Assembly (NCBI RefSeq): GCF_021209385.1
Contig: NZ_JAJOIL010000025.1
Coordinates: forward strand, 1-42,297
Direction: 5' to 3'
From: Seleniivibrio sp.
Lineage (GTDB): Bacteria > Chrysiogenota > Deferribacteres > Deferribacterales > Geovibrionaceae
Length of the DNA stretch: 42,297 nucleotides
Part shown: positions 10,132-29,910 of the stretch, in pieces
Layout: every line of letters starts with the position of its first letter
How positions within the stretch are numbered: position 1 is the stretch's first letter
The notes under the pieces: generated by a model
Databases searched by the model: none
What the model saw: only the letters and a program-made list of their open reading frames with translations
Told to the model about the DNA's origin: nothing
Made by a program: the position numbers and the translations under genes

Positions 10132-11159
10132 TGAAAAGATTTTACTGTTCCTGCGGGGCAGAAATATTTTTTGATAATACAATATGTTTTGCCTGCGGAA
10201 AGCTGGTGGGGATTGATGTCGTCGGTTCGGAGATGTTCACCCTTAAGCACAAGGGCAAAGGTCTCCTTGCCGCCACCGTCGGCTCCAACACGCGCTATTA
10301 CCGCTTCTGTGAGCACCGTTCGCCTGACCTGCTCGGCTGTAACCTGCTTATAAGAGAGGACGATCCGCATACGCAATGTGTTTCGTGCAGGCTGACCAGA
10401 ACCGTTCCCGTTCAGGACATACCTAGAAATGTCAAGCGCTGGCGTACCCTTGAGGAAGCGAAAAGGCGTATGGTTTTCAATATGTACCGCCATCATCTCC
10501 CCTTTAAGAACAGAGAGGAAGATCCCGTTAAAGGTCTTTGCTTCGACTTTCTTGAGGACAGACGTTCCAACCCGAACGTTTCTCAGGATGTAGTCTATAC
10601 CGGACACTCAAGCGGAGTTATAACCATAAACGCCGCCGAAGCGGATCCTGAATACCGTGTTTCCATGCGCGAGGAGATGAACGAGCGATACAGGACAACT
10701 CTGGGGCATTTCCGCCACGAGATAGGACATTATTTCTTTATGACCCTTGTTGAAGGTACAAAATGGGAACGTCAGTTTGACGTGCTTTTCGGCGATCATA
10801 AAAAAAATTATGACGATGCACTGAAAGCCTATTATGCCAATGGTCCCGCTCCGGACTGGCAGGAACACCACATAAGCGCGTATGCATCCATGCACCCGCT
10901 GGAGGACTGGGCGGAGACCTGGGCGCACTACATGCATATGATGGATACATTGGAGACAGCAATTTCATTCGGAGTGCTGAACGTAGATATTGAATATAGC
11001 GATTTCAGATCGGTGATTAACAAATGGGTTGAACTGACCGTTATAATGAATTCGCTGAACCGCAGTGTTGGCAAACCGGACGCTTATCCTTTCGTTCTAA
11101 GCAGTGAAGTTTATGATAAGCTGGTTTTTGTAAGAAACGTTATTCTCTCAGTCAGATAG
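10131..11159 (+). CDS. Zinc-ribbon/zinc-binding metallopeptidase (PF15887, Peptidase_Mx type)
   Basis: The 342-residue product starts with a zinc ribbon (C6, C8, C19 and C22 in FYCSCG...CFACG) and has the gluzincin motif HEIGH with H196, E197 and H200. A downstream EDWAETWAHY segment probably supplies the third ligand. The layout matches a family of putative zinc-binding peptidases that recurs next to alpha-E/ATP-grasp genes. No signal peptide is seen, so it should act in the cytoplasm. Translation is coupled to the alpha-E gene (TGATG). A natural reading is that the ATP-grasp enzyme makes an amide bond and this protease processes or removes it, but that is inference. Confidence 0.85.
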   Translation: MKRFYCSCGAEIFFDNTICFACGKLVGIDVVGSEMFTLKHKGKGLLAATVGSNTRYYRFCEHRSPDLLGCNLLIREDDPHTQCVSCRLTRTVPVQDIPRNVKRWRTLEEAKRRMVFNMYRHHLPFKNREEDPVKGLCFDFLEDRRSNPNVSQDVVYTGHSSGVITINAAEADPEYRVSMREEMNERYRTTLGHFRHEIGHYFFMTLVEGTKWERQFDVLFGDHKKNYDDALKAYYANGPAPDWQEHHISAYASMHPLEDWAETWAHYMHMMDTLETAISFGVLNVDIEYSDFRSVINKWVELTVIMNSLNRSVGKPDAYPFVLSSEVYDKLVFVRNVILSVR

Positions 11160-11520
11160 TGGTTATTTTTTAAGCTTGCGATTAATTTTTAATCAGCACA
11201 TGGTTTTGTTCTATGTGTGTTTCGTATAGGTCTATAGAAAAATTCAATGTCAAAATATTTTTATTATTTGCAAAAATATAATCTTTATTATGTCCCGTAG
11301 ATTATGGCATATTCCTGTAACTCTTTTTTATTTTTCAGCTAAAATTTGTTTCTCCATTAAATTTTTAATTTTATAAACATGGTATGGTTAGCCGACGAAT
11401 CTGTTTGGTGTAAAATATTTGAGTAAAATTTAACAATGGGTCTTTAATTAAATGATGCTATTGATAAATATGATGTGGCACGTTTCTGGCTAGTTTAACT
11501 TTCCGACAACGGGGGTATAT
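11160..11520 (+). other. AT-rich intergenic region, 361 bp, no gene seen
   Basis: This stretch is clearly more A+T-rich than the genes around it and has stops in all frames. A short stem GATTAA-TTT-TTAATC near 11180 follows the peptidase stop but lacks G+C and a clean T-run, so I do not call it a terminator. The right end holds a sigma-54-type promoter and the GGGGG ribosome-binding site of the next gene. No riboswitch or small-RNA family was recognised. Confidence 0.6.
11476..11490 (+). promoter_or_regulatory. Candidate sigma-54 (-24/-12) promoter
   Basis: TGGCACG (11476-11482), four bases, TGGC (11487-11490) matches the consensus TGGCACG-N4-TTGC except for one T-to-G in the -12 element. 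The invariant GG and GC dinucleotides are at the correct distance. Transcription would start near 11502, leaving a leader of about 19 bases that contains the GGGGG site (11511-11515). Sigma-54 commonly serves motility genes, which fits the CheW domain of the downstream product. Confidence 0.6.
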
Positions 11521-14148
11521 ATGTCTGCTGAAGAAATGGTCACCTATAAAGATATCGAAATTCCGAAATCGCTGATCGGGGTCATAAACCACATGGACAG
11601 TGTGGACGAATACCGTGAGGAACTGCTTCGGCTAGGCGCCCAGTGGGATCTGCTGACCATTCTGGGGCAGATGGTCGGCACGGGCACAGACATGACCGGA
11701 ACCCGTAAGGGCTTTCTGGATCTTACAAATAAACTGCTCTGTCAGCTTGCACTGGAAAACATGCGAAAGACGGTGCAGGAGATAGCGTCGAAGGCGCAGG
11801 TTGCCGTGGATATCCTCATCCGCAACCTTTTCGAGCGCACCGCAGACATTGGCTTTCTTGCCACTGACGACGATATCAGAGATTTCATCATAAAAAACGA
11901 AGAACTTGACATCCTCTGCAAGGGCGGCGGTGACGAGCAGGTGTGTGACACGCTGAACAGAACGCAGCTGCGCGAAGAGATGAAACAGGCGCTCATTGAA
12001 CGTTTTCGGGAATATATCGCTAAATACTCGGTATATTTCAACATAATTCTTCTGGATACGGACGGGAACGTTCTTGTGCAGATGGATCAGGACAGCAAGG
12101 TGTTAAAGACCTCCGATCCTCTGGTTAAGGACGCTGTTGAGGTTGATGGAGAATATCTTGAAGTGTACAGATATTGCGACCTTCTGCCGCAGAATGAAAA
12201 ATCACTCATATACGCATACAGGGTAACAAGAAGCAATGAGGAAAAGGATGACGTTCTCGGCGTACTCTGTCTCTGCTTCCGCTTTCAGAACGAGATGGAG
12301 GGCATATTCCGCAACCTGTCGTCGAAAGACGACTGGTCGGTTAAGCTTATCCTCGATGCGGACGGCCATGTAATCGCCAGCTCGGACAGATACCATGTTC
12401 CAATCGGGGCTAAGATGGATATGGCGCTTAACAAAGAATACGGCATGGTTATCTTTGCCGGAAAGAAATATATCGCTAAGACCTGTCCCACAAAAGGATA
12501 TCAGGGCTTTTTCGGACTCGGCTGGTACGGACACGTTATGATACCGCTTGAGAGCGCTTTTGAGATATCGGAAGAGAGTTCCGCGAAAAAGAGCATAAAC
12601 GATAAGATCCTGGAGGCTGTAATGAGCGACCCGAGGCTGTTCTCGGGCGAACTGCGCAGTATTCCCCTTCAGGCGGAAAAGATTCAGAGCGACCTTGAGC
12701 GCACCGTATGGAACGGAAACGTGAAGGAGAGCGACCCTGCATCAAAAGTGCTTCTCTGGAGCATTTCCGGCACAGGCGCCAAGACCAAAAAGATATTTGA
12801 ACAGTCCATTGGCAATCTGCACAAGACGGTCATAGATTCCATACTCTCAAACGTATGGTTCTGGGCGGCGCTTGCGGTGGATATCATGGACAGAAACCTT
12901 TACGAGCGTGCGAATGACTGCCGCTGGTGGGCGCTGACATCCGCCTTTAAGCGCATACTGGACAAACCGAAGATCGAGGCGGAAGATAAAGAGAAGATAA
13001 GCGGAATTCTGCAATACATAAACGGACTTTACACAGTATATACCAATCTGTTCGTATATGATTCATACGGAAGGGTGATTGCAGTTTCAAACCCCACCGA
13101 AGAACACATAGTCGGCTCTGTTCTCAGCAAAGATTTCGTACGCAATACTCTTGCTCTCAGAGAGAGTTGTCAGTACAGCGTTTCAAAGTTTGAAACAAGC
13201 GAACTCTACGGCGACAGACACACATACATTTACGGCGCAGCCATAACCTCTTTTAAAAACGGAAAAAATACTCTGGGCGGCATAGGGATAGTATTCGACA
13301 GCGAACCGCAGTTTGAGGCTATGCTTCACGACGCACTTCCGCGGAACGAACGCGGAGAGGTTGAAGAGGGCGTCTTCGGTGTGTTTGCCGACAGAAAAGG
13401 TTATGTCATAAGCTCCACCTGCTCAGATCTGAAAACCGGCGATATTATTGCAGTAGATAAAGAATTCCTCAATATGAAGAACGGGCAGGGTATTTCAAAG
13501 ATAATCGAATACGGCGGTTATTATTATGCCGTCGGAGCGCATACAGGCAGCGGATACAGAGAATACAAACAGGGCGACGGGTACGAGAATGATGTAATTG
13601 CTCTGATATTCACTCCTTTGGCTAAGGTTTCCGCGGAGCAAGTATATAACATCCGCAGGCGCGGTGACAGCGTGCGCGTTAAAAGTGCGGCAGGCAGCAA
13701 GGACAGCATAGAGGTTGCAACCTTCTTCATCGGCACAAAATGGCTGGGTATAAAGACAGAAAACGTTGTGGAGGCTATCAACCCCGAGGGGCTTACAACC
13801 GTTCCCGGCAGTCATAAATTTGTAAAAGGCAGGCGGATATATAAAGATCTGCCGCTTTTGGTGGTGGATATACGCAGTGTTCTTGACCTGCCTGACAAAG
13901 AGGTAGATAACGACAGCCAGATAATCGTTCTGCGCTACAGAGACGACCAGCTTTTCGGTCTCATAGCTGATGCGCTTGGCGAAATACCGCAGATACCCCT
14001 TGACAGGGTGGAGTGTTCCGACCATATACTCGATAACAGCAAATACACCGAATGTATCGTAAAACCTGACCAGACACAGCCCAACGGCGAGATGCTCATG
14101 GTTCTGAGACCCGAAGGGATCATAGGGAAGCTCAAGGAAATGATATAA
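11521..14148 (+). CDS. Soluble tandem-Cache protein with C-terminal CheW domain
   Basis: The product is 875 residues with no signal peptide and no clear membrane segment. It contains two copies of one module. The first begins at AVDILIRNLFERTADIG (about 95-111), the second at AVDIMDRNLYERANDC (about 452-467). Each is followed by two Cache/PAS-like beta-sheet halves (IILLDTDGNVL and KLILDADGHVIASSD; NLFVYDSYGRVIAVS and VFADRKGYVISS). Residues about 728-870 are a CheW domain (VATFFIGTKWLGI...PLLVVDIRSVLDL). CheW couples receptors to CheA, so this protein probably brings a ligand-sensing input directly to the chemotaxis array from the cytoplasm. No methylation helices are seen. Known Cache proteins usually sense outside the cell, which makes the soluble form unusual. 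Confidence 0.8.
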   Translation: MSAEEMVTYKDIEIPKSLIGVINHMDSVDEYREELLRLGAQWDLLTILGQMVGTGTDMTGTRKGFLDLTNKLLCQLALENMRKTVQEIASKAQVAVDILIRNLFERTADIGFLATDDDIRDFIIKNEELDILCKGGGDEQVCDTLNRTQLREEMKQALIERFREYIAKYSVYFNIILLDTDGNVLVQMDQDSKVLKTSDPLVKDAVEVDGEYLEVYRYCDLLPQNEKSLIYAYRVTRSNEEKDDVLGVLCLCFRFQNEMEGIFRNLSSKDDWSVKLILDADGHVIASSDRYHVPIGAKMDMALNKEYGMVIFAGKKYIAKTCPTKGYQGFFGLGWYGHVMIPLESAFEISEESSAKKSINDKILEAVMSDPRLFSGELRSIPLQAEKIQSDLERTVWNGNVKESDPASKVLLWSISGTGAKTKKIFEQSIGNLHKTVIDSILSNVWFWAALAVDIMDRNLYERANDCRWWALTSAFKRILDKPKIEAEDKEKISGILQYINGLYTVYTNLFVYDSYGRVIAVSNPTEEHIVGSVLSKDFVRNTLALRESCQYSVSKFETSELYGDRHTYIYGAAITSFKNGKNTLGGIGIVFDSEPQFEAMLHDALPRNERGEVEEGVFGVFADRKGYVISSTCSDLKTGDIIAVDKEFLNMKNGQGISKIIEYGGYYYAVGAHTGSGYREYKQGDGYENDVIALIFTPLAKVSAEQVYNIRRRGDSVRVKSAAGSKDSIEVATFFIGTKWLGIKTENVVEAINPEGLTTVPGSHKFVKGRRIYKDLPLLVVDIRSVLDLPDKEVDNDSQIIVLRYRDDQLFGLIADALGEIPQIPLDRVECSDHILDNSKYTECIVKPDQTQPNGEMLMVLRPEGIIGKLKEMI

Positions 14149-14171: not shown

Positions 14172-14199
14172 TGACATATCCTGCGGATGGTACTATACA
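14171..14199 (+). promoter_or_regulatory. Sigma-70 promoter of the arsenic-type operon
   Basis: TTGACA (14171-14176), 17-bp spacer, TATACA (14194-14199) is close to consensus. Transcription would begin near 14206, giving a leader of about 10 bases before the ATG at 14217. An in-frame ATG at 14187 lies upstream of this point and is therefore unlikely to be used. Confidence 0.72.
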
Positions 14200-14216
14200 T
14201 CTGTCAGGAGATATCT

Positions 14217-15368
14217 ATGAAAGAAATATACAAGTTTGTTTCGCTGGCGGCATTGTTTGCAGTGCTGTATTTTACACCGTTTGAATCGGTAAGTGTTTCT
14301 TCCGCAATTCTGGAGGGCTTCTATCTGCTGTCGGAATACGTCCGCCAGCATACGCTGACCTGTCTTATCCCGGCGCTTTTCATAGCGGGAGCCATAAGCG
14401 TTCTTATTTCGCAGGCTTCCGTGATTAAATATTTCGGTGCCGACGCCAAACGTGTCGCCGCCTATGGCGTTGCGTCCGTTTCAGGCGCTGTGCTTGCCGT
14501 CTGCTCATGCACCATTCTTCCACTGTTCGCAGGTATCTATAAACGCGGAGCCGGACTTGGTCCCGCCATAGCGTTCGTTTATTCCGGTCCCGCCATAAAT
14601 ATTCTAGCCATAGTGCTTACGGCAAGGGTACTTGGACTTGAGATGGGGCTTGCCAGAGGAATTCTTGCCATTCTCTTTTCAGTAATCATAGGCGTCGTGA
14701 TGGCGTTTCTGTTCCGTGGAGAAGAGGCGGAGCGTCAGGCGCTTGCCATGCGGGATGTGAAGGCGGAGAACGTCCTTTTACAGATATTGTTTTTTGTCGC
14801 CATGACGGCGGTTCTGATATTCGCCACATGGGCTAAACCTGCTGTGGGCGGAACTCTTTTTGCGGCGATATATGATATGAAATGGTATCTTACATTTTTG
14901 AGTCTGTGCGCCGTTATACTAATGAGTTTTTATGTGCTTAACGCAGATCAGCGCAAACTGTGGATAGAGGAGACTTGGGGCTATGCTAAGCAAATAATTC
15001 CTCTTCTTTTCATAGGGGTTCTGATTGCCGGTTTTCTTCTGGGACGTCCCGGTCACGAGGGCGTGATACCTTCAGAATACATTTATATGCTGGTTGGAGG
15101 CAACGGTTTCGGTGCAACGCTTTTTGCCTCTGTGGCAGGCGCTTTGATGTATTTTGCAACTCTGACCGAGATACCTATATTGCAGGGTCTCATGGGTGCC
15201 GGAATGGGCAAAGGTCCCGCACTTGCGCTCCTGCTTTCAGGTCCCGCGCTCAGTCTGCCCAGCATGCTGGTTATACGCAGTGTCATAGGGCTTAAAAAAA
15301 CAGTGGCATACGTTCTTCTGGTGGTTATTATGTCTTGTACAGCAGGAATGATATACGGAAATATGTGA
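14217..15368 (+). CDS. Permease of the ArsP/YraQ (DUF318) family
   Basis: From ATG 14217 (CAGGAG upstream) the product is 383 residues with about eight membrane helices in two related halves. The first half has CSCTILPLFAGIYKRGAGLG and YSGPAINILAI; the second has TEIPILQGLMGAGMGKGPAL and LSGPALSLPSM. The repeated SGPA pattern and the CSC pair are hallmarks of this family, which includes ArsP, an exporter of trivalent organoarsenicals. Members linked to other metals exist. The downstream thioredoxin-fold protein and ArsC argue for arsenic export here. The gene leads the operon and is driven by the promoter at 14171-14199. Confidence 0.88.
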   Translation: MKEIYKFVSLAALFAVLYFTPFESVSVSSAILEGFYLLSEYVRQHTLTCLIPALFIAGAISVLISQASVIKYFGADAKRVAAYGVASVSGAVLAVCSCTILPLFAGIYKRGAGLGPAIAFVYSGPAINILAIVLTARVLGLEMGLARGILAILFSVIIGVVMAFLFRGEEAERQALAMRDVKAENVLLQILFFVAMTAVLIFATWAKPAVGGTLFAAIYDMKWYLTFLSLCAVILMSFYVLNADQRKLWIEETWGYAKQIIPLLFIGVLIAGFLLGRPGHEGVIPSEYIYMLVGGNGFGATLFASVAGALMYFATLTEIPILQGLMGAGMGKGPALALLLSGPALSLPSMLVIRSVIGLKKTVAYVLLVVIMSCTAGMIYGNM

Positions 15369-15376
15369 GGTAAATC

Positions 15377-15661
15377 ATGAAAATAAAAGTATTAGGTCCC
15401 GGATGCGTAAACTGTAAGAAAATGCACGAAATGACCCTTCAGGCGGTTAAAGAGCTGGGGATTGATGCAGATATCGAATATGTCAACGATATGACTGAAA
15501 TATCCAACTATATAATGGTCACTCCCGGACTGGTTGTGGACGAAGTTGTCGTTCACGAGGGAAAACCCCTGCCCACAGTCCATGAGATAAAGATACTTCT
15601 CAAACAGAAGAACGCGTCAAGCGGCGGAAGCGGATGCGGCTGTTCCGGCTGCTGCGGTTAA
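15377..15661 (+). CDS. Small thioredoxin-fold redox protein with Cys-rich tail
   Basis: The product is 94 residues. The first 75 form the short thioredoxin-like fold of the 'redox-active disulfide protein 2' family, with the active-site pair GPGCVNCKK (C10 and C13) and the cis-Pro segment [10 protein letters not shown] flexible tail [12 protein letters not shown] follows, adding five Cys in the last nine residues. The core could reduce ArsC after catalysis or handle thiolated arsenic, and the tail looks like a soft-metal ligand, possibly passing As(III) to the permease. These roles are inferred from the motif and from the position between permease and arsC. The gene starts 8 bases after the permease stop with GAGGT. 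Confidence 0.85.
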
Positions 15662-15665
15662 TAAT

Positions 15666-16070
15666 ATGAAGCGCGTACTTTTCGTATGTGTACATAACAG
15701 CGCCAGAAGCCAGATGGCAGAGAGCTTTCTCAACGGGCTGTCCGGCTTTTCGGCGCATAGTGCAGGGCTTGAGCCAGGCAGTCTGAATCCGTTTGTTGTG
15801 CGTGCAATGGCGGAAGTCGGTGTGGATATTTCATGCAACCGCACAAAGAGTGTGACGGAATTTCTGGGGCAGGATTTTGATTATGTGATTGCCGTATGCG
15901 ATAAAGAGGCGGCGGACAGATGTCCTGTGGTTCCGGTTTCAGGTGAAAAGATGCACTGGGAGTTTCCCGATCCGTCGTCGTTTCAGGGAACGGATGAACA
16001 GAAGCTCGCCTTTGCCCGCACTGTGCGGGACGCCATACAGAAAAAGATTCTGGACTGGGCGGCGCTTTAA
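15666..16070 (+). CDS. arsC: Arsenate reductase, low-molecular-weight phosphatase type (ArsC)
   Basis: The 134-residue product carries the phosphatase-like P-loop [14 protein letters not shown] (catalytic Cys8, Arg14). It also has the two further redox Cys of thioredoxin-linked ArsC in [15 protein letters not shown], and the conserved HWEFPDPS segment. It reduces arsenate to arsenite in the cytoplasm, with electrons from thioredoxin; the neighbouring small thioredoxin-fold protein may be its partner. The presence of all three Cys separates it from ordinary LMW protein-tyrosine phosphatases. The start is 4 bases after the previous stop, and it closes the operon. Confidence 0.9.
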
Positions 16071-16081
16071 CAAAATTTTAC

Positions 16082-16109
16082 ATGACAATCTGAATAATCG
16101 GTATATATT
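16082..16109 (+). promoter_or_regulatory. Possible promoter of the SLAC1/TDT transporter gene
   Basis: ATGACA (16082-16087), 16-bp spacer, TATATT (16104-16109) lies 35 bases before the start. Both boxes match consensus at five and four or five positions. The 73-bp gap after arsC has no recognisable terminator, so read-through from the ars operon is also possible. Confidence 0.35.
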
Positions 16110-16143
16110 GTTTTCTGAATAAATAACAATTACCGAGGTTCAG

Positions 16144-17106
16144 ATGGAAGAAACAGAAGTAAATCGTTTAAAGAATTTCCCCATAACGCTTTTTTCAACG
16201 GTTATGGGGCTTTCGGGACTTGCCATAGCATATATGCGCTATGGTTCCGTGATGAAGGCAGGCACCATCGGGTTTTCAAAGTATTTTCTGTATGCAGTGA
16301 CCGTGTGGTTTGCCGTTCTTGTTCTTATCTATGCTCTTAAGCTGATAAAATATCCGACAGAGGTTAAGCACGAGTTTATCCACCCTGTGCGGATGAATTT
16401 TTTCCCCACCATATCTATTTCAATGCTCCTTTTAAGCATCGGATACGAGAACATATGCCACCCTTTTGCGTCTGCTCTGTGGTGGGCGGGTGCGCTTGTT
16501 CATATCACATTCACGTTTGTTATCATTAACATGTGGTTTTTCAGGGAGTATAAGATACACGCCATGAACCCAGCATGGTTCATTCCTGTTGTAGGTAATA
16601 TACTTGTGCCTGTTGTGGGGGCGAATTTCGGCGGAACCGAAATGTCGTGGTTCTTCTTCTCAATAGGGCTTGTTTTGTGGATTGTGCTTTATACGATAGT
16701 TATTTACAGGGTTATTTTTCACGATGCTCTTGTGCAGAAGTTCATGCCCACGCTGTTCATTATGATAGCACCCCCTGCCGTGGGTTTTATATCATATTCA
16801 AAACTGACCGGCGGACTGGATTCGTTCGGCAGGATTCTTTTCTATTTTGCAGTGTTTACAACGCTTGTGCTTGTTTCCATGTTTCCAAGGCTGAGAAAAG
16901 CTCCGTTCTATATGTCGTGGTGGGCGTATACGTTCCCTATGGACGCTATTACCATCGCGACGATACTGATGTATAAAATGACGGGCGCAGTGTTCTTTAA
17001 GTCAATGGCGCTTGTTCTGCTGGCGGTTACGACGTGTGTTGTTGTGCTGGTGCTGGTGAGAACTGTTGCTGAAATGTTATCGAAAAAGGTTTGTATTCCG
17101 GAATAA
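16144..17106 (+). CDS. SLAC1/TDT-family anion channel or transporter (TehA-like)
   Basis: The 320-residue inner-membrane protein has about ten hydrophobic helices and the typical opening LKNFPITLFSTVMGLSGLAIA. Later features are the conserved NPAWFIPVVGNILVP and a regularly spaced set of helices ending in a short basic tail. Relatives include the tellurite-resistance protein TehA, malic-acid transporters and plant SLAC1 anion channels. Substrate cannot be told. Position after arsC hints at an oxyanion, but the separate promoter-like sequence weakens that. The start is ATG with GAGGT a few bases upstream. The 3' end is convergent with the etf operon across a palindromic repeat. Confidence 0.87.
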   Translation: MEETEVNRLKNFPITLFSTVMGLSGLAIAYMRYGSVMKAGTIGFSKYFLYAVTVWFAVLVLIYALKLIKYPTEVKHEFIHPVRMNFFPTISISMLLLSIGYENICHPFASALWWAGALVHITFTFVIINMWFFREYKIHAMNPAWFIPVVGNILVPVVGANFGGTEMSWFFFSIGLVLWIVLYTIVIYRVIFHDALVQKFMPTLFIMIAPPAVGFISYSKLTGGLDSFGRILFYFAVFTTLVLVSMFPRLRKAPFYMSWWAYTFPMDAITIATILMYKMTGAVFFKSMALVLLAVTTCVVVLVLVRTVAEMLSKKVCIPE

Positions 17107-27812: not shown

Positions 27813-27849
27813 CTTAAAAATTGAACTTTTTTTAATTTTGGGGGATGGT

Positions 27850-29910
27850 GTGAAACGACTTTTGCTGCTGCTTGCAGTTCTTCTTATATCTGCGGTCGGA
27901 TTTGCCGCTGGAATCACAGACAACGATATCCGCGGATTCTTTCCGAAGGCGGACGACCTGCCGGGCGGTTCGGAGCTTTGGCTTGGAACAGGCGTGCGCT
28001 CCACTCCGGGTAAAAATAATACTGCCTACAGCGCAACGTATTCTTATTATTCCGGTAAATCCGAAAAACTCATGAATATTGTCCGCCGTGATCAGTATAA
28101 GACAAACGTGGCGATCTACTCTTTCAACAATTTCGTCGATGCGGAAAAGCTTTTCAAACAGCTTACGGATGATGCGCCGAAGAACCGCTCGCAGATGGTT
28201 CGTTTCGGCGAGCGAGGGCTGTTTTTCATCTTTCCGAAATCATCAAATATAAACGACGCGGATTTCTATCTGGTATTCATAAACAGAACTTTTGTGGTAT
28301 GGATTCAGGCGGACGACGGTTTCGCCATTATGGACATTGCAAACCCAGTCAATGACGCCATCAGAAAATTCATAGCCGACAACCCGAAGCTGTACATGAC
28401 GAAGGCTATCCACCTGCAGGCGTCCGGAAACGGATATGAAACGCAGACTAAAAGGATTGAATTCACAACAGATTTTCCCGCCAGCATAAAGCTTTCGGGC
28501 AAGGTTTTCAACAATAAGACCGTTCCAATGCAGAATGTAAGAGTGACGGTTCTTGAAACGGGAGATTCCGTTCTGACCGCCGCGGACGGCAGTTTCTCAA
28601 AGACTCTGCTTCTGGACGGCATAAAAGATATAGAGCTTTCAGCGAATTTCTACATGGACATGGACGCGGCGTCGAGATCAGGCAGATTTGCCAGCGGGCT
28701 GGTGGAAACCGTTCTGAAAGATGCAGACGGTGCTGAACGCACACAGCTCTGGAAGCTGGACAGTGTTACAGACTCCTATTTCGGCACTGCATACATAAAG
28801 ACATCCAAAGGAACTAACGGATATCCCATATCGGGCAAGATAATGAAGAACGGTCAGCTGAATCTGACCCTTGACTGTTCCAATACGGGGATAGATTTCA
28901 AATGTCAGCAGGTTTTCACCGGACAGATCAAATCGGGAAAACTGCAGGGCAAATGGAGCGGAACCGGCGGCGGAGGAACATTTGAATCAGACCTTTCAAA
29001 GTATTCTGCTGTCACTCGCAAGGTTATGATAACAAAAGATGTTGCAGATATCAGAACAATGATATCCAACAACAACGGAATATACACACAGGCGGACACT
29101 CCTTCGCTGGTGGTCTCTTCAAATGCGAATAACAATGCCATCATCTATGCTGTGCCGGACGTTAAAAAACTCGGACTGGACGAGGTGACAACGGCGGGTG
29201 TTAAGCTGGTGCTGACCCACGTCCCTAAAAATCAGGCGGGCAGTCTGTCCGTTTTCCTTATGGATGCCGATGCTGCCGACAAAAAGGTCAGAACAGGCAG
29301 AGGAACCTATTCCGGTCAGGTTGTGACATCGGAAGAACCTTATAAGGCGGAGTTCGAAGTTTATGACATGATAAAGGACGGAAAACCGTTCGCTCTCGGA
29401 ACCGTTCAGGAGGCGAAGGCGACGGGATTTCATGTTTTTTCCGGTTCCTCCGAGCAGTATGACACGCTGAAACCCTATTTTCTGATAACCGAGTATTCCG
29501 ACAAGGGCAAAACCAGAACGGAAAAACAGTTTACCTTTGTTCGCACGGCGATGAAGGGCGGCGACTATGTGGGCGACAGGAACAAACCCCAGCAGGACGG
29601 TATTGAAGACGTCTGCTACAGCGGTGTGTTCGCGTATCCCGGAGGACGGCTGACATCTTTCGAGCTGGAGATAAGCGGCTCTATCAAGCGGGTGTTCAAC
29701 ACCAATCCCGTTGACATTTATCCGCTCATCGGTATTGTAAGGGATAATACGCTTCTGAACAAAAAGGACGGAAGTCTGAACATAATGCTCACAAAACCGA
29801 AAGAGCAGTTCAGTCTTTGCGTAAACGGAAACTATAAACCGGAAAAGAACGAAAGGATAACATACAGATATACCATAGACGGCACACCATACGAAGGGTT
29901 TGCCGAATAG
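27850..29910 (+). CDS. Large exported protein of unknown function
   Basis: I do not recognise the family. GTG 27850 is chosen because GGGGG lies about 6 bases upstream and it begins a clean Sec signal (KRLLLLLAVLLISAVGFAAG); a TTG at 27838 is also in frame. The mature protein is about 665 residues. Residues roughly 30-195 resemble a compact alpha/beta domain with LPGGSELWLG and many Tyr/Phe. Residues about 215-290 look like a carboxypeptidase-regulatory beta sandwich (KLSGKVFNNKTVPMQNVRVT). The rest is beta-rich with many Gly, Ser and Asp, and has two Cys pairs (SNTGIDFKCQ, EDVCYSG). No membrane anchor or lipobox is seen, so it is probably periplasmic or surface-exposed. It leads a dense gene run. 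Confidence 0.8.
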   Translation: MKRLLLLLAVLLISAVGFAAGITDNDIRGFFPKADDLPGGSELWLGTGVRSTPGKNNTAYSATYSYYSGKSEKLMNIVRRDQYKTNVAIYSFNNFVDAEKLFKQLTDDAPKNRSQMVRFGERGLFFIFPKSSNINDADFYLVFINRTFVVWIQADDGFAIMDIANPVNDAIRKFIADNPKLYMTKAIHLQASGNGYETQTKRIEFTTDFPASIKLSGKVFNNKTVPMQNVRVTVLETGDSVLTAADGSFSKTLLLDGIKDIELSANFYMDMDAASRSGRFASGLVETVLKDADGAERTQLWKLDSVTDSYFGTAYIKTSKGTNGYPISGKIMKNGQLNLTLDCSNTGIDFKCQQVFTGQIKSGKLQGKWSGTGGGGTFESDLSKYSAVTRKVMITKDVADIRTMISNNNGIYTQADTPSLVVSSNANNNAIIYAVPDVKKLGLDEVTTAGVKLVLTHVPKNQAGSLSVFLMDADAADKKVRTGRGTYSGQVVTSEEPYKAEFEVYDMIKDGKPFALGTVQEAKATGFHVFSGSSEQYDTLKPYFLITEYSDKGKTRTEKQFTFVRTAMKGGDYVGDRNKPQQDGIEDVCYSGVFAYPGGRLTSFELEISGSIKRVFNTNPVDIYPLIGIVRDNTLLNKKDGSLNIMLTKPKEQFSLCVNGNYKPEKNERITYRYTIDGTPYEGFAE

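Follow-up and report, generated by a model that had tools for sequence, protein, structure and literature searches.

A soluble protein with two dCache repeats and a terminal CheW domain in Seleniivibrio sp., and the association of its family with nitrogen fixation

The window, i.e., the whole stretch of 42,297 bases from Seleniivibrio sp. that was analysed, carries on its forward strand an ORF of 875 residues that begins with ATG and starts 361 bases after an ORF stopping at 11159. The features recognised in and before this gene, some of them predicted from the model, are the following:

11476..11491, + strand: sigma-54-like -24/-12 site TGGCACGTTTCTGGCT, starting 45 nt before the start codon (score scan)
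11521..14148, + strand: 875-aa soluble protein, (hairpin + dCache) x 2 + CheW (ORF, Pfam, AlphaFold2 model)
11596..11859, + strand: helical hairpin of repeat 1, residues 26-113 (DSSP on the model)
11734..12576, + strand: dCache domain 1 with its leading helix, residues 72-352 (VIA; dCache_1 below cut-off)
11803..11847, + strand: signature AVDILIRNLFERTAD, residues 95-109 (motif position and alignment conservation)
12646..12930, + strand: helical hairpin of repeat 2, residues 376-470 (AlphaFold2 model)
12808..13626, + strand: dCache domain 2 with its leading helix, residues 430-702 (VIA, Z 20.0 to DctB 3by9)
12874..12918, + strand: signature AVDIMDRNLYERAND, residues 452-466 (motif position and alignment conservation)
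13702..14145, + strand: divergent CheW domain without the NLRG motif, residues 728-875 (Pfam, VIA, alignment)

The genes that follow (14187-17106) encode an ArsP-type permease, a low-molecular-weight phosphatase or ArsC-like protein, and a SLAC1/TehA-like channel. They form an arsenic or oxyanion group, and no connection with the sensor gene is apparent. Further along, at 27838-29910, lies an ORF of 690 residues with no Pfam match at E<=1e-5.

The first-pass annotation of this DNA proposed an internal duplication with AVDI modules at about residues 95 and 452. AVDI was found at exactly these residues, and the homology of the repeats was borne out both by BLASTP of one half of the protein against the other (28% identity, 123 columns, E 9e-5) and by hhalign of the repeats as 86-row profiles (probability 98.9, E 2.7e-17, 238 columns). 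Both repeats also contain a Y[ST]VY motif (residues 169 and 504). The duplicated unit is larger than first described, as it includes a helical hairpin (model helices 26-52 and 59-113 in repeat 1, 376-402 and 406-470 in repeat 2), the second and very long helix of which enters the double-Cache domain. The NL[FY]ER signature sits in this helix, outside the Cache pocket of the model, and its residues belong to invariant alignment columns. Eight positions of AVDILIRNLFERTAD are the same in all 78 sequences compared (R101, N102, L103, E105, R106, T107, A108, and D109), and in the region of AVDIMDRNLYERAND every position from D457 to D466 is invariant in the same sequences, likewise R468, W469, and W470.

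Pfam places dCache_1 (PF02743) on two stretches of the protein with 31.4 bits, under the cut-off of 45, which is passed by several relatives (L049 with 53.8, L135 with 64.2, L132 with 50.9, and L131 with 54.8), and Cache_WalK reaches 27.6 bits (cut-off 27) at residues 496-551. A search of NCBIfam gave no match to the window protein. The full-length AlphaFold2 model, built with 78 family sequences, has a mean pLDDT of 82.9 and a pTM of 0.75. Since VIA of this model tested mainly repeat 2 and the CheW domain, repeat 1 (residues 16-365) was also folded alone (pLDDT 87.6, pTM 0.79). Both repeats match solved dCache domains, repeat 1 with Z 17.1 to 3lid and 17.0 to DctB 3by9, and repeat 2 with Z 20.0 to DctB 3by9 over 226 residues at 2.8 A; Foldseek was concordant with these VIA matches. 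The two-lobed, Cache-like region that had been proposed for each half is thereby recovered in the predicted structure.

The same annotation held that the protein has no membrane helix, HAMP, or methylation region, and this stood as well. A hidden membrane helix was ruled out by the hydropathy of 19-residue windows, which peaks at 1.47 (residues 437-455); the peak is not read as a membrane helix because it falls inside the long model helix 406-470. Pfam finds no MCPsignal, HAMP, receiver, or CheR match at E<=1. Judged by the same hydropathy, the extracellular placement of a dCache domain between two membrane helices does not apply to this protein. Among the relatives, 16 of 86 have a window above 1.6, and the six highest start at residues 672-766, spanning the end of repeat 2 into CheW. 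In sum, sequence and predicted model support a protein of two cytosolic dCache modules and a CheW fold that lacks a membrane helix, HAMP, and an MCP region.

The CheW domain, which had been recognised at the C-terminal end, is assigned to PF01584 at residues 732-869 with 54.3 bits (cut-off 23.5), and its model matches 2qdl (VIA Z 17.2, 140 residues, 2.5 A) and E. coli CheW in 6s1k (Z 17.0). Its sequence is divergent. The canonical NLRG motif occurs in none of the 86 family members; it is present in the three CheW proteins of the host that were aligned with 17 of these members. The position of its Arg is taken by K or R in 39/86, and the Glu of the preceding 'VVEA' strand, presumably equivalent to E38 of E. 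coli CheW, is retained in 72/86. In the 86-row alignment conservation is strong in both repeats and in the linker that joins them, and lowest in CheW. One might suppose that the protein is an ordinary structural CheW paralogue with Cache repeats that are ligand-less relics. The R-x-W-Y motif, which we take to mark the pocket of amino-acid-type dCache domains, was looked for and is missing from all 86 members, as would befit such relics; yet the repeats are the most conserved part of the protein, as 66 of the 68 positions invariant in 78 sequences precede CheW, and they persist in members that have no CheW. We therefore regard this explanation as very improbable.

These CheW-less relatives (L130-L136, in genomes G790, G788, G630, G090, G327, and G364) have both hairpin-dCache repeats, are 629-675 aa long, and end after repeat 2, L136 being cut by a contig end. 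In the FastTree phylogeny one branch (support 87) parts them from 83 CheW-bearing rows, a split that is provisional because several long branches meet there. By eye, L134 lies near ORFs resembling cheB and cheR, and L131 adjoins MCP-like fragments. Docking of the CheW domain to the array, or its binding to CheA, is putative, and on sequence grounds it can be called plausible and no more, because NLRG is missing throughout and these relatives dispense with the domain.

The family is widespread. The best 80 of 590 confirmed places in GTDB genome contigs are mostly matched over nearly the whole length of the protein, with identities of 41-90% in the best segment. The matches listed include Deferribacterota, Thermodesulfobacteriota, beta- and gammaproteobacteria, Campylobacterota, and Verrucomicrobiota, and the nearest named organism among them is Seleniivibrio woodruffii (90%). 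In Gammaproteobacteria at large the family is rare (4/323 genomes, the centre genome included), and plasmids yielded no full-length member. In the alignments, the window protein itself is entered as L001. L022, L023, L024, and L029 were taken as identical to G002, G001, G011, and G009 (equal identities) and dropped from the alignment and the neighbour counts, and of L041 and L067 only the last 890 residues entered the 86-row alignment. Two reduced alignments, A1 (78 rows) and A2 (74 rows), lack L041, L067, L004, L038, L051, L053, L058, and L059, and A2 additionally L077, L086, L090, and L095. No operon partner is common to most loci. The nearest to a recurrent one is an uncharacterised protein of ~190 aa, present at six loci, among them L040, L050, L066, and L072; in the last three its gene precedes the family gene by 72-110 bp. 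Its representative L040_15 has no Pfam or NCBIfam match.

A finding that the first-pass annotation did not contain is the link to nitrogen fixation. Carriers of the family are mostly diazotrophs. Among the window's relatives (59 genomes, mostly from its own phylum with a few from other phyla), nifH was found in 10/10 carriers and 12/49 non-carriers (Fisher p 1.0e-5); in the Rhodocyclus family (199 genomes) in 25/28 and 63/171 (p 1.4e-7); and in the phylum Campylobacterota (249 genomes) in 21/23 and 13/226 (p 1.2e-19). These p values overstate independence, because the genomes are related and kinship was left uncorrected. nifH was scored by matches over the TIGR01287 cut-off. A carrier in the latter two sets is a genome with a match at E<=1e-60, partial and CheW-less matches included, and in the first set one with a match over the Cache region; the Gammaproteobacteria, Rhodocyclus-family, and Campylobacterota sets were limited to 90% completeness. 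For 50 of the best 80 of the 590 loci, the genome was searched as well, giving nifH over the cut-off in 36, fragments in two, and nothing in 12. The 12 genomes with no nifH match (at E<=1e-60) include metagenome bins, and also the strains Methylovorus sp. MM2 (L062) and Methylobacillus gramineus (L070).

The neighbourhoods of the relatives brought an unexpected result. The genes nifE, nifK, nifX, and draG recur there, of which nifE and draG were identified over the cut-off, nifX just below it, and nifK through its resemblance to proteins annotated as NifK. At 20/76 loci the fetched flank (up to ~8 kb) contains a nif or draG gene. NifS has general uses in Campylobacterota, and a stricter reading of the flank table keeps 16 of the 20 loci, or 15 if L066 is also removed; the weak cases are L050 and L072 with nifS only, L052 and L065 with nifT at 30-32%, and L066 with nifS and a nifX at 30%. 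The distances can be short: draG is 71-183 bp from the family gene in L045, L054, and L073, and nifE 109-148 bp in L063 and L074. On the same contig, nifH lies less than 65 kb away in 7/25 and 9/21 genomes holding both. The family as a whole is thus nif-associated by co-occurrence with nifH and by proximity to nif genes; for the window copy, no nif gene was found in the fetched flank or the window neighbourhood. At six loci (L057 and five others, the cluster of L057_7), the gene of a Sel1-repeat-like protein lies close to the family gene; towards its C-terminus this protein shows a weak match to NifU (28.4 bits, well below the cut-off).

The promoter region was examined as well. On both strands of the 42,297 bases, a score of at least 13.9 is reached by one site alone, that at 11476-11491, and a similar sigma-54-like site stands upstream of the family gene in L003-L006. 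The score and its weights are our own, built on the sigma-54 consensus and on no published matrix. Within the last 200 bases upstream, such sites (score >=13) precede 26/80 family genes (the earlier 84-gene set minus further near-copies), compared with a mean of 0.63 and a highest value of 3 in 100 dinucleotide shuffles, and with 21/514 neighbouring genes. Their distribution is uneven, with 0/18 in Campylobacterota-like rows and 26/62 elsewhere. NifA-type TGT-N10-ACA sites are mildly enriched, being found upstream of 15/84 family genes and 67/831 control genes (p 0.005; controls were ORFs called by script). Upstream of the window gene, the -24/-12 site is present and no TGT-N10-ACA site was found; nifH of the same genome has two TGT-N10-ACA sites and a -24/-12 site. 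The association with nif and the sigma-54-like site are, like the architecture, seen at the level of sequences and models.

It could be argued that the nif association is merely ecological. The family would then mark motile microaerophiles or anaerobes, which are often diazotrophs, and would respond to a general cue such as redox state, energy, or organic acids. nifH was not found in 3/28, 2/23, and 12/50 carriers, the window copy has no nif neighbour, and the sigma-54-like site also precedes the Methylophilaceae copies L062, L070, and L085, of which L062 and L070 come from genomes without nifH, all of which fits this proposal. However, linkage to nif or draG at 20/76 loci is far over the 1-2% that might be expected by our rough estimate for a 30-kb cluster in a 3.5-Mb genome, and we hold the ecological explanation to be rather improbable. 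A clade of Methylophilaceae (L062, L070, L085, and L087) carries the gene, and its function may have shifted there.

What does the protein act on? The interpretation to which we give an evenly balanced credence is that of a cytosolic sensor feeding a signal linked to nitrogen fixation into the chemosensory system. Such input to the array needs CheA, so its presence bears on this reading, and CheA (PF02895) was found in all 64 carrier genomes tested, namely 61 carriers of the three sets and three genomes of the Gammaproteobacteria set (carriers only). In the host, CheW is matched 13 times and MCPsignal 38 times, and 37 of the latter exceed the cut-off. The earlier suggestion of a sensor working without a methylated receptor holds for the 875-aa protein itself, but not for its host. 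No chemotaxis operon was seen around the family gene, which has che or MCP genes in its vicinity at just 5/77 loci.

The main rival holds that the protein acts on nitrogen fixation and not on swimming, with the CheW fold repurposed to tie the sensor to a regulator or kinase of nif or nitrogenase, by way of DraT/DraG or of a route from CheA to NifA. The loss of NLRG in 86/86 members would agree with such a change of partner, as would nif/draG neighbours (20/76) being commoner than che/MCP neighbours (5/77), and CheW-less relatives occur in nifH-bearing genomes, including all four from Campylobacterota (G090, G630, G788, and G790). In Azospirillum, cheA1 and cheA4 mutants are reported to alter nifA, rpoN, and nifH promoter activity (PMC8561660). 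On the other hand, CheA accompanies the family in every carrier genome tested, the model preserves the CheW fold (Z 17.2), and the 'VVEA' Glu is kept in 72/86. With these data in view, we consider a role in nif regulation unlikely, though it deserves the first place among the alternatives.

Several known systems can be compared with this protein. CheV is a soluble CheW fusion with a receiver domain, and the protein described here has Cache modules instead, with no receiver match at E<=1. AerC is a chemoreceptor with PAS domains. Vass and colleagues are said to have surveyed CheW architectures, and the arrangement of two hairpin-dCache units and CheW may already be listed there; in the open-licence literature searched (titles and abstract openings), no description of a double-dCache CheW protein was found. 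The closest functional precedent is CheWS of Treponema denticola, a CheW-CheRlike SAM sensor that is reported to be a CheA-binding part of the array ring and to elicit chemotaxis in response to its ligand (PMC10653840). According to the same source, no CheW-fused sensor had been characterised before it, and 30 CheW architectures still await study (PMC10653840). Both proteins are soluble sensors fused to a CheW domain; however, the CheRlike SAM domain of CheWS is C-terminal to CheW, while in the window protein two dCache units come first and CheW last, and the taxa and the nif link also differ (PMC10653840). AerC of Azospirillum brasilense (PMC8561660) is among the closest systems and is not a CheW fusion, and MtpA of Methylobacterium is reported as a cytosolic receptor for formaldehyde (PMC10613068).

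Returning to input into the chemosensory array, what speaks for it is the architecture, the co-occurrence with nifH, the linkage to nif/draG, the sigma-54-like sites, CheA in 64/64 genomes, and the precedent of CheWS. What speaks against it is NLRG in 0/86, a poorly conserved CheW, the CheW-less relatives, a nif link that is not absolute, a window copy with neither a nif gene nearby nor a TGT-N10-ACA site before it, and few che/MCP neighbours; we judge the two sides to weigh about the same. A more specific form, to which we incline somewhat less than half-way, is that the family represents a receptor-less cytosolic class of double-dCache sensors, controlled by sigma-54 and often encoded with nif/draG, which would put the nitrogen-fixing state of the cell onto the CheA array via a non-canonical CheW, its CheW-less cousins serving other partners. 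The ligand, the docking, and the direction of the signal are what we infer here, and the ligand-binding role behind the 'metabolite sensor' of the first-pass annotation is likewise putative. In the proposed mechanism, each dCache would bind a small intracellular ligand or report a redox or nitrogen-status cue. The resulting change might then be relayed through the long and highly conserved helix with NL[FY]ER and through the linker, and so reach the CheW domain. This domain would occupy a CheW-like place beside CheA in the array and shift kinase activity. Swimming would then favour sites where N2 fixation pays, i.e., those with low oxygen and scarce fixed nitrogen.

As a CheW-fused sensor, the family spans several phyla, and the genomic evidence hints strongly at its role. 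If the proposed interpretation is true, the dCache fold, for which the solved examples matched here come mainly from extracellular or periplasmic domains, functions in the cytosol as well, CheW can serve as a sensor input beyond its role as a linker, and bacteria steer by their own nitrogen-fixing state. The cytosolic dCache class is broader than the double-dCache CheW family, because short soluble MCPs encoded on plasmids of alphaproteobacteria and Burkholderiaceae (L125 2698-3723, L126 2668-3702, and L127 3647-4822) bear the same motifs. They consist of an MCP tip and one C-terminal dCache, and share with the window protein the cytosolic dCache and the RNLYER..D.RWWA and YTVY-type motifs. 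They differ from it in having a single dCache behind a short MCP hairpin, a length of 341-391 aa, and no CheW; the Pfam MCP signal is present in both of those scanned, L125 and L126.
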